Source of the DNA: an uncultured Acidimicrobiaceae bacterium
Lineage (GTDB): Bacteria > Actinomycetota > Acidimicrobiia > Acidimicrobiales > Poriferisodalaceae
Reading direction: 5' to 3'
DNA length: 44,902 bases
Assembly (NCBI GenBank): GCA_913020735.1
Contig: CAJWBN010000003.1
Span: 1 to 44,902, forward strand
The notes under the pieces were generated by a model, which was given only the letters and a program-made list of their open reading frames with translations, did not search any database and was not told the origin of the DNA. The stretch's first letter is position 1. Each line of letters begins with the position of its first letter. A program made the position numbers and the translations under genes. Below, one piece after another: positions 41,157 through 44,902 of the stretch.

Positions 41157-41597
41157 ATGTCACCTCAACTTGTACGACTACTAACAATTCTTCTGCTTGT
41201 TCTCATACATCTGTTTCTGTTCAGAGTCATTCGAGCTATTTGGGTGGGCATAAAACCAGCACGAGAAGCTCGGACCCGCGGAAACCGTTTCATTAGGAAC
41301 AACCGACAAGCAAGCGTTCTCATAGTCAGAACTCCTGAAACGTTAAGTGGACAACGGCACGAACTAAATCTCGAGATAACTATCGGGCGAGCAGCGACCT
41401 GCGATGTAACCATTGATGACACCTACGCCAGCCAAATCCATGCCCGAATTTTTCGACGAGAAGGTAACCACGTCTTAGAGGATTTAGGTTCGACCAACGG
41501 CACATATCTAAACCGTCAGAAAGTTTCTTCAGCAACCACCCTCCGCACGGGCGATCACCTCCAAATTGGTTCAACGGTCTTTGAGGTCATGTCATGA
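41157..41597 (+). CDS. fhaB: FhaB-like protein (TM + FHA)
   Basis: N-terminal TM; IGRAATCDVTIDDTYASQIHARIFRREGNHVLEDLGSTNGTYLN. Confidence 0.9.
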   Translation: MSPQLVRLLTILLLVLIHLFLFRVIRAIWVGIKPAREARTRGNRFIRNNRQASVLIVRTPETLSGQRHELNLEITIGRAATCDVTIDDTYASQIHARIFRREGNHVLEDLGSTNGTYLNRQKVSSATTLRTGDHLQIGSTVFEVMS

Positions 41598-42823
41598 ACT
41601 CACCACCGATGCGCAGATTACGCCTCACGTGGGGAGGCGCGACAGATCAAGGCAGAATTCGAGCGAACAACCAAGACGCCATGTATGCGGATTCAGCATT
41701 ATTCGTTGTAGCTGACGGAATGGGAGGTCATCAAGGCGGAGAGGTCGCAGCGAATCTCGCCGTACGTACCGTCGCTAATGCCGATCGTTCTAATAGAGAA
41801 CAACTTCGCGATGCGATAATCGAAGCCAACCGAGTAGTCCACGAAACTGCACTTGAAGAACCCGAACTACACGGGATGGGGACGACGTTGACTGCGCTGG
41901 CGGTGAGCCAAGAGGCTGACAGCCATCAATTCGTCATACTAAATGTTGGTGATTCAAGGGTCTATCGACATCGAGATGGTGAACTTGAACAGCTAACCGA
42001 AGATCACAGTTATGTCGCGGAACTTGTACGCCGCGGCGAACTTGATAACCAAGCTGCAGAAGTCCACCCGTATCGGAACATGTTGACCCGAGCAATCGGA
42101 GTTCACGCCGACGTCGAGGTAGACGAATGGCTACTCGAGCCAGTAGCCGGGGACCGTTTCATGTTATGTAGCGATGGCCTCACCAATGAACTTGCCGACA
42201 CAGAAATAGCCGAACAATTGGGGTTAGGCCAGGACCCAAGCACGAGCGCTAAAGCCTTAGTTGGCCTAGCCAACGAACGCGGGGGAAGAGACAACTCAAC
42301 GGTCTTAATAGTTGACGTCCAAGTAGAAGTGATCGAATCCGAAGAGGCAAATCTGTCTTCAGAGACCACCGACTCTCCAACCTCGGTTATCACTCCACCT
42401 AATGAACCAAATCCCTCCAAAGACCGCTCAAAAGATCTTTCTGATCGAACTGAGCAGACATCAAATATAAAAGAACGAAGTTGGCTATATGACCGCGTTC
42501 ATATAAAGCTAAGCGCTGTCGTAATTGCCTTGGTGCTCTTGCTAACTAGCGCCGCAATGGTCACAACCATTGGTTGGTATGCCCGTTCCAGCTACCACGT
42601 AGGCGTTGTAGCGAATCACGTCGTTATTCAAAAGGGACGTATAGGAGGGCTTCTTTGGTTTGAACCAACACTTGAGCATTGGACAGACATCCAAACCGTT
42701 CAACTGACAGAACAAGACCGACAGCGATTAGTTAATGGCGAGCAGATGTCCGATCTCGACGACGCAAAACTTTTTGTTTCAAATCTCAGGAGTCGTCTAA
42801 TCAAAGGTGCGGACGGTAACTGA
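41594..42823 (+). CDS. pstP: PP2C-family Ser/Thr phosphatase (PstP-like)
   Basis: RANNQDAMYADSALFVVADGMGGHQGGEVAANLAV; FMLCSDGLTNELAD; GGRDNSTVLIVDV; C-terminal TM. Confidence 0.93.
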   Translation: MNSPPMRRLRLTWGGATDQGRIRANNQDAMYADSALFVVADGMGGHQGGEVAANLAVRTVANADRSNREQLRDAIIEANRVVHETALEEPELHGMGTTLTALAVSQEADSHQFVILNVGDSRVYRHRDGELEQLTEDHSYVAELVRRGELDNQAAEVHPYRNMLTRAIGVHADVEVDEWLLEPVAGDRFMLCSDGLTNELADTEIAEQLGLGQDPSTSAKALVGLANERGGRDNSTVLIVDVQVEVIESEEANLSSETTDSPTSVITPPNEPNPSKDRSKDLSDRTEQTSNIKERSWLYDRVHIKLSAVVIALVLLLTSAAMVTTIGWYARSSYHVGVVANHVVIQKGRIGGLLWFEPTLEHWTDIQTVQLTEQDRQRLVNGEQMSDLDDAKLFVSNLRSRLIKGADGN

Positions 42824-44144
42824 AGTGAACAATCAGCGGATAGTTGAACTGACGCTTCTGTTACTTGCTGCCTTCATCACACTGGCCACGGTTGCCATAG
42901 CTGCGGTGGCCGAAAGCACTGATATTGGTTGGGCAGCTATCCCCTACTTGGCCGTCTTACTGTTCTTGTGGGCTATCAGCCATCTATCTCTAAGAAAATG
43001 GGCGCCAACGGCCAACGGTTTACTCTTCCCAATCACCGCATTATTACAGGGTCTTGGGGTCGCGTTTATCTTCAGGGTTAACTCAGATCTCCTACTAAAT
43101 CACTTAAGTTGGAGCGCCTTCGCAACCTTCGGCTTTATCTCAGTAATAGTCGGCGTCCGGGACCTAAAACGGCTACAGAACTTTCAGAAACCGCTTGGAT
43201 TGGCCGGCCTTGCGTTGACTTTAATTCCTGTAATCACGAAAATAAGTGACGGGAAAATAGGTTCACACAGATCATTCCAAATCGGTTCTGTGGCTATCGA
43301 CCCAAGTCATCTAGGCACCCTATGTTTGATCATTTTTTTCGCAGGTTGGCTCGCCAATTACCGTTTACGCAACACTGCTGAATATCTAGGTGAAGCAGAA
43401 CGGCTGGACGGCGACCCTTCTCGGTTCGTTCCTCTCATCGGAGCTTGGCTAGTTGCTTCAATTACGGTGATCTTTCAGAGCGACGTAAGTTCAGCGTTCA
43501 TTCTTGTCGCCATATTTCTTTCAATGTGGTGGGTCGCGGTTGGGCGACCACTTGATTTAGTGCTCTTTTTGGCAGCTATTGCTGGATCAGTTCTTATAGC
43601 TCTAAGTAACGTGCCCGAACTACAAGAGCGCTTCGACGCCTGGGCCGACCCCTGGTCCAATCTGCAATTTGGCGAAGTTATTAACCGCTCCACATTTGCT
43701 CTCGCTGGCGGTGGCCTGACTGGCACAGGTCCCGGGGAAGGCTCTGCCAACTGGGTTGTCGGAGCGACTGATCAATTTGCGTTCGTTCCTATTGCCGAAG
43801 AGCTTGGTTTTATCGGCGGCGCCGCTGTTTTATCAACCTTCTTGTTACTTATAGGTGTCGGGTTACGTTTAGCGACCGCCGCCCGAAGAGAATTCGAAAG
43901 CCTGTCAGCTATCGGAATCACAATCTTCTTCGCTAGCCAAGCATGGGCACCTATCGCTGTGGTTCTTCGGCTTCTGCCTCCTAACGACCTATCGTTACCC
44001 TTTGTTTCCTCTAATGGCGGAGCTCTATTTTCGTGCACCATTGCCTTAGCACTCCTACTGAAAATTTCTGAAACCGCTCCGCTCGCATCAAATCCGACTG
44101 AAGTTCTTCCCCAGATTGCATCTGGGACTGAGAGCACACCATGA
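42807..44144 (+). CDS. rodA: RodA/FtsW/SpoVE (SEDS) family protein, with divergent catalytic motifs
   Basis: ~10 TM; FALAGGGLTGTGPGEG, ATDQFAFVPIAEELGFIGG retained; DPSHLGT replaces QPxExxK and SSNGGA replaces SYGGSS. Start 42807 or GTG 42828. Confidence 0.88.
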   Translation: MRTVTEVNNQRIVELTLLLLAAFITLATVAIAAVAESTDIGWAAIPYLAVLLFLWAISHLSLRKWAPTANGLLFPITALLQGLGVAFIFRVNSDLLLNHLSWSAFATFGFISVIVGVRDLKRLQNFQKPLGLAGLALTLIPVITKISDGKIGSHRSFQIGSVAIDPSHLGTLCLIIFFAGWLANYRLRNTAEYLGEAERLDGDPSRFVPLIGAWLVASITVIFQSDVSSAFILVAIFLSMWWVAVGRPLDLVLFLAAIAGSVLIALSNVPELQERFDAWADPWSNLQFGEVINRSTFALAGGGLTGTGPGEGSANWVVGATDQFAFVPIAEELGFIGGAAVLSTFLLLIGVGLRLATAARREFESLSAIGITIFFASQAWAPIAVVLRLLPPNDLSLPFVSSNGGALFSCTIALALLLKISETAPLASNPTEVLPQIASGTESTP

Positions 44145-44902
44145 GCCGCCGTTTATTTCACGTCGGAATCGCTTTTCTTCTTATCTATGGTCTCTTGTTT
44201 TTCCGACTAGAGATGGTTCAGATTGTGAATGCAAAAAGTCTAAGAAATCACCCTCTAAATACCCGAGAGATCACTTTGGACTTTGATGGTCCGAGGGGCT
44301 CTATCCGAACTGCCGATGGGGAAACCGTTGCCCAAACTGTCGCTGTAAGCGGTTCACGAAATCGTTTACGCCAATACCCTTACGGCTCTCTCTACTCCCA
44401 AGTCGTCGGCTACATTTCGGCCAAGCACGGAGGCAATGGGATAGAGCGAAGCCACAACGACTTCTTGGCCGGCAACGACTTATCCGTGCGTATACAAGAC
44501 GGCCGCGATTTATTCGTTGACCAAGCACGCACAGGGCAGGTCGAATTATCGCTCAGGCACGACGTTCAATTAGTTACCAGAGCCGCTATGGCAGGCCACC
44601 TGGGCACGGCCGTGGTCATGGAACCCAAAACTGGATCAATTTGGGGAATGTGGAGCAACCCAACTTTTGATCCCAATCACCTGTCATCTCACGACTTAGA
44701 CGCAGCAGCAATTGACTTCAAACTATTGAACTCTGATCCAGCTCAGCCGTTAACAAATCGAGCTGAGTACCAAAGCGTCGAGATCGGTTCGCTATTCACC
44801 ATTGTTACCGCCGCTGCGGCCATCGAAAATAACCTCAGTGACTTCAATGTTCCAGCGACTTCGTCATTTCCGGCCAGGTCGAACTTCCCCATTATTACTA
44901 AC
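44141..44902 (+). CDS. pbpA: PbpA-like class B penicillin-binding protein, truncated at window end; SxxK degenerate
   Basis: MSRRLFHVGIAFLLIYGLLFFRLEMVQ...AVVMEPKTGSIWGMWSNPTFDPNHLSSHD...AQPLTNRAEYQSVEIGSLFTIVTAAAAIENN. Not in ORF track (open at end). ATGA overlap with rodA. Confidence 0.9.
   Translation, partial: MSRRLFHVGIAFLLIYGLLFFRLEMVQIVNAKSLRNHPLNTREITLDFDGPRGSIRTADGETVAQTVAVSGSRNRLRQYPYGSLYSQVVGYISAKHGGNGIERSHNDFLAGNDLSVRIQDGRDLFVDQARTGQVELSLRHDVQLVTRAAMAGHLGTAVVMEPKTGSIWGMWSNPTFDPNHLSSHDLDAAAIDFKLLNSDPAQPLTNRAEYQSVEIGSLFTIVTAAAAIENNLSDFNVPATSSFPARSNFPIITN

Follow-up and report, generated by a model that had tools for sequence, protein, structure and literature searches.

The window, i.e. 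the whole stretch of 44,902 nucleotides analysed here, is the entire contig C3 of a 2.3 Mb genome (81% complete) from an apparently marine clade. It ends in the FhaA-FhaB-PstP-RodA-PbpA-PknB cassette (PknB being a kinase with PASTA domains), which is retained; pbpA is cut by the contig end (Table 1). The rodA and pbpA genes are adjacent and co-directional, the stop of the former overlapping the start of the latter by 4 bases, and their adjacency is also retained in the relatives. In the lineages whose PbpA has lost its catalytic motifs (see below), PknB adjoins PbpA in every locus that reaches beyond pbpA, and its HRD, DFG and Lys motifs are intact.

Table 1. Features of the cassette in the window (residue numbers refer to PbpA)
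Feature	Position	Strand	Remarks
fhaA	40515..41156	+	FhaA_N and FHA protein of the cassette
fhaB	41157..41597	+	FHA-domain protein of the cassette
pstP	41594..42823	+	PP2C protein phosphatase of the cassette
rodA	42807..44144	+	SEDS, PF01098; active-site residues replaced
pbpA, 5' part	44141..44902	+	ATG at 44141; 254 codons, cut at contig end
Parts of PbpA			TM helix; PF21922 pedestal/dimerisation domain, residues 52-133; start of PF00905, residues 155-234
Stretch 100% identical to G001 (PBMG01000020)	44741..44902	+	probably chimeric contig end
SxxK box	44789..44800	+	S-L-F-T, catalytic Lys replaced by Thr

The window PbpA matches PF21922 (E=3.8e-17), and the protein has the architecture of its family, namely a TM helix (called by eye) followed by PF21922 and PF00905, with the SxxK, SxN and KTG boxes missing. 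The preliminary description of this DNA had claimed that the active-site box reads S-L-F-T in place of S-T-F-K. The in-frame codons tcg cta ttc acc bear this out, and phmmer pairs GSLFT with the GSTFK of Mycobacterium tuberculosis PbpA (PDB 3UN7). The PPG that precedes the box is lost as well (VEIG), as the same description had stated.

The completed pbpA gene and the contig end

A PF00905 search of the same genome found the remaining half of pbpA at the end of contig C4, where it opens with TTC ACC (F-T-I-V-T-A-A-A-A) and is followed by PknB. The preliminary description had pointed to the SxN and KTG motifs beyond the contig end, and both are gone: C4 encodes DRCRSGWATIG at the SxN site (RCR) and GGLLASS at the KTG site (LLAS). 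Likewise, the complete pbpA (481 codons) of the sister species G001 ('Acidimicrobiaceae bacterium isolate SP219', PBMG01000020) carries SLFT, SSCRSG (SCR at SxN) and GLLASS (LLAS at KTG). This full-length protein matches 3UN7 (E=1.3e-43) and PF00905 (E=2.6e-29, residues 155-455), which argues that the fold is kept. AlphaFold2 on a three-sequence alignment gave no usable model of the G001 protein (pLDDT 31.7, pTM 0.21).

At its very end (44741-44902) the window agrees with PBMG01000020 at 162/162 positions, whereas pbpA upstream of this stretch is only about 80% identical. Contig C4 carries a different version of the stretch, in which 22 of the 108 overlapping bases differ from C3. A chimeric end of C3 is therefore the probable explanation, with recombination as the alternative, and the SLFT codons fall inside this end. 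The conclusion on motif loss holds because C4 and six congener assemblies independently encode F-T at the same site, which also contradicts the presence of a Lys codon in intact sequence, an observation named beforehand as fatal to the claim. Hence SLFT as an assembly or sequencing artefact, for which the identity to another species would speak, has a negligible probability and was rejected on the agreement of the independent assemblies.

Loss of catalytic residues in PbpA and RodA

The window's family (f1) includes the genera g1-g7, g9 and g10. The SxxK Lys, the SxN Asn and the KTG are absent from PbpA in 19/19 genomes of g1, g2, g4 and g7, a count that includes the window genome as read across two contigs, and in g4 even the SxxK Ser is replaced by A or P. 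The 11 genomes of g5 and g6 likewise lack the SxxK Lys. The two g6 genomes have P-I-F-S for S-T-F-K and KIG for KTG while SCN is retained, and the nine g5 genomes read (L050-L057, L065) encode a PbpA of about 420 aa with none of the three motifs, the SxN region being absent and the transpeptidase domain reduced to some 270 residues. No conserved replacement motif is apparent across the genera compared, and the PbpA matches from the loss genera contain no internal stops. PbpA of g3, g9 and g10 is canonical, some of the loci being truncated where a contig stops. All three motifs are likewise intact in representatives of 23 further families of the order and in 69/69 loci of a class-wide sample, 4 of which are shared with the first set and in which SxD was scored as an SxN variant. 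The genus g57 (family f33), with genomes of about 1 Mb, gave no PbpA match at 1e-30 among the genomes listed, and pbpA may have disappeared entirely from this streamlined lineage.

A tree of MrdA places all loss lineages in a single clade (99/99), with the intact genera on the other side, so the loss most simply goes back to before the six genera diverged. The simplest reading is a single ancestral loss of the Lys that was followed by different erosion in each lineage, with independent losses as the alternative. The rodA-pbpA pair was present in all the loss-clade genomes searched except one, which is 65% complete and also has no MrdA.

The preliminary description had taken PbpA to be transpeptidase-dead and probably non-reactive with beta-lactams. 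Both are what the sequence predicts, and the prediction is strengthened by the additional loss of SxN and KTG and by the Ser that is itself not kept. It had missed that the partner RodA is degenerate too, and that the change in PbpA is clade-wide and under selection.

The window RodA matches PF01098, the FTSW_RODA_SPOVE domain (E=5.8e-44). Its positions are given in E. coli RodA numbering by alignment, using what we take to be the E. coli sequence together with the residue contexts in published papers. The replacements are W102>S, Q111>D, E114>H, K117>T, G161>S, D262>Q, Y341>S and G342>N, so the SEDS catalytic Asp262 and the cavity residues Trp102, Gln111, Tyr341 and Gly342 are all missing. 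Trp102, Gln111, Asp159 and Asp262 are of published importance in E. coli RodA (PMC10449877), and the equivalents of Trp102, Gln111, Asp262, Tyr341 and Gly342 are among the important residues of FtsW (PMC8765783). The window RodA is thus very probably a pseudo-SEDS glycosyltransferase.

The active-site loss in RodA, newly found here, occurs in the same four genera as the full motif loss in PbpA. Among the tabulated representatives of g1, g2, g4 and g7, W102 has become S/V/A/G, Q111 D/H/E/A/I, D262 Q/L/H/N, Y341 S/F/L/A/V and G342 N. All five residues are present in the sister genera whose PbpA is intact. RodA of g5 and g6 is intermediate, with D262, W102 and Q111 kept and R210, S340 and G343 changed, and hence may still be active.

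Selection on the retained pair

Both PbpA and RodA are under purifying selection in the loss clade, as judged from pairwise Nei-Gojobori omega. For the motif-less PbpA, omega is 0.115 (g1), 0.136 (g7) and 0.156 (g4). Intact PbpA gives 0.13-0.14 in g10 and g3, each measured on a single pair, and about 0.03 to 0.26 elsewhere in the class, where some dS values are saturated. PbpA omega is 0.20 in g6 and 0.32 in g5, the latter being under weaker constraint. RodA omega is 0.12-0.13 in the genera with degenerate RodA versus 0.08-0.09 in the intact ones, MrdA omega is 0.02-0.04 (g1, g4, g7), and the PknB kinase domain stands at 0.017 (g1). With open frames and an omega of 0.12-0.16 in g1, g4 and g7, PbpA shows neither the broken frame nor the neutral evolution of a pseudogene, and dN/dS rules out free pseudogene decay.

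The distribution of constraint along PbpA was compared by a ratio that is free of dS, the dN of residues 1-150 (TM helix and pedestal) over the dN of the remaining protein. This ratio is 0.48, 0.48, 0.46, 0.63 and 0.74 in five loss genera versus 1.31, 1.28, 1.37, 1.23, 1.11, 1.68, 1.20 and 1.08 in eight intact genera; the two sets of pooled values are separate, although in some genera individual pairs overlap. Similarly, between genera it is 0.42-0.51 for the motif-less and 0.81-1.05 for the intact PbpA. In known SEDS-bPBP pairs, the TM/pedestal half contacts the SEDS protein (PMC8078798). The ratios thus imply that, relative to the SEDS-contacting membrane and pedestal half, the catalytic domain has lost constraint.

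A putative non-catalytic role

Catalytic residues are lost in both proteins, yet the genes are intact, adjacent and under purifying selection, which makes a non-enzymatic job probable. On the sequence evidence, the pair is best read as a pseudo-transpeptidase PbpA and a very probably pseudo-SEDS RodA, which are probably kept as a non-catalytic scaffold or regulator. On the simplest view, the dead pair would have become fixed a single time, in the common ancestor of the six genera of this Acidimicrobiia family, and would have been held by purifying selection thereafter. The TM helix and pedestal of PbpA may still dock on RodA, the pedestal by way of ECL4, a contact of which the heavier constraint on the N-terminal half in the loss lineages would be an indirect sign. 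The resulting complex may serve the FhaA-FhaB-PstP-RodA-PbpA-PknB module without catalysis, as a scaffold in the membrane or as a regulator. The kinase-phosphatase module that encodes the pair would be the most plausible site of such a role. For example, the complex might bind peptidoglycan or lipid II, or might act on the PASTA kinase PknB, or on another synthase, by positioning or tuning it. The stronger proposal, that a doubly dead SEDS-class B PBP complex was converted, within the PknB/PstP cassette, to a module for signalling or scaffolding with a selectable non-catalytic function, is put forward tentatively, as a serious possibility.

The M. tuberculosis PbpA (PDB 3UN7/3LO7) shares homology over nearly the whole of the sister protein, including PF21922, and its operon FhaA-FhaB-PstP-RodA-PbpA-PknA-PknB likewise sets PbpA beside RodA and a PASTA kinase. 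However, SxxK, SxN and KTG are lost here and RodA is degenerate too, and the locus L036 has no PknA gene between PbpA and PknB. M. tuberculosis PbpA is described as a substrate of PknB (Dasgupta 2006, as cited in PMC3601408). The catalysis of bPBPs is separable from SEDS activation, and in some cases the bPBP is essential although its TPase activity is dispensable (PMC8078798, PMC12713402). B. subtilis PBP2b, the catalytic mutants of S. aureus PBP1 and C. difficile SpoVD S311A are likewise class B PBPs with a separable non-catalytic role, but these are active enzymes that were mutated in the laboratory or blocked by a drug, and their SEDS partners are active, whereas in the Acidimicrobiia the loss arose naturally, spans a whole clade and extends to the SEDS partner. 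Searches of open-access PMC text found no relevant account of PBPs as pseudoenzymes or of the peptidoglycan and PBPs of Acidimicrobiia, and the papers there that combine pseudoenzymes with peptidoglycan concern, by title and abstract, neither SEDS proteins nor PBPs.

These precedents speak for a different reading, in which the dead PbpA still activates RodA allosterically, as the catalytically inactive PBP2b does in B. subtilis, so that RodA remains an active polymerase and other PBPs do the cross-linking. The stronger constraint on the pedestal half of PbpA is consistent with it, as are the Asp262, Trp102 and Gln111 kept by RodA of g5 and g6. It is nonetheless unlikely, because RodA of g1, g2, g4 and g7, the window genome included, lacks Trp102, Gln111, Asp262 (as aligned), Tyr341 and Gly342, and this active-site loss downgrades a pure activator model.

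It is more doubtful still that the pair is a decaying relic with frames still unbroken. PbpA does evolve fast by comparison with MrdA (omega 0.02) and PknB, and it is most relaxed in g5, where the domain has shrunk. On the other hand, its omega lies far below 1 and is similar to that of intact PbpA, stops are absent from its matches, the pair persists across the clade but for the single incomplete genome, and the loss is most simply older than the split of the six genera.

Activity by means of relocated residues is quite improbable. It would call on an Asp of RodA one position upstream and on an unrecognised nucleophile in PbpA. An Asp does immediately precede the D262 column in every degenerate RodA (ATDQ, VTDH, ATDL, VVDN; usually TDF), and this conservation leaves room for residual polymerase activity. 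However, many other active-site residues of RodA have changed together, and in PbpA the Ser position varies (S/A/P) with no replacement motif seen across the genera.

A scaffold or regulatory role of the pair would bear on whether SEDS-bPBP complexes have functions besides wall synthesis, a question that is hard to address in model organisms, where point mutants of SEDS-bPBP complexes mix the loss of catalysis with dominant-negative effects. As far as can be read from the residues, evolution has here removed both catalytic activities and kept the proteins clade-wide. Such a clade-wide natural loss makes the non-catalytic role testable by comparison of the dead with the intact sister genera, and the dead clade maps the part that selection still sees, i.e. 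the membrane and pedestal half. If the reading is true, the doubly dead pair shows that a SEDS-class B PBP complex has a selectable non-catalytic function. It is also a warning that annotating a RodA/PbpA homologue by default as an enzyme or a beta-lactam target is unsafe.

Polymerisation and cross-linking would be carried out in these bacteria by the intact MrdA-RodA2, FtsI-FtsW and class A PBP. The MrdA-RodA2 of the window genome, on contig C101, is also a SEDS-class B PBP pair, but its motifs are intact (SVFK and KTGT in MrdA; W, Q, E, K, D and GG in RodA2), and this MrdA is 94-95% identical within the genus. An intact MrdA is present in all loss genera, and inspection by eye showed FtsI and a single class A PBP to be intact in the window genome, so a capacity for cross-linking exists without PbpA. 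Three SEDS proteins per genome are typical. Within the family f1, PF00905 matches number four or five per genome in the loss genera versus 6-8 in the intact ones, which indicates that the size of the PBP set differs between the two groups.
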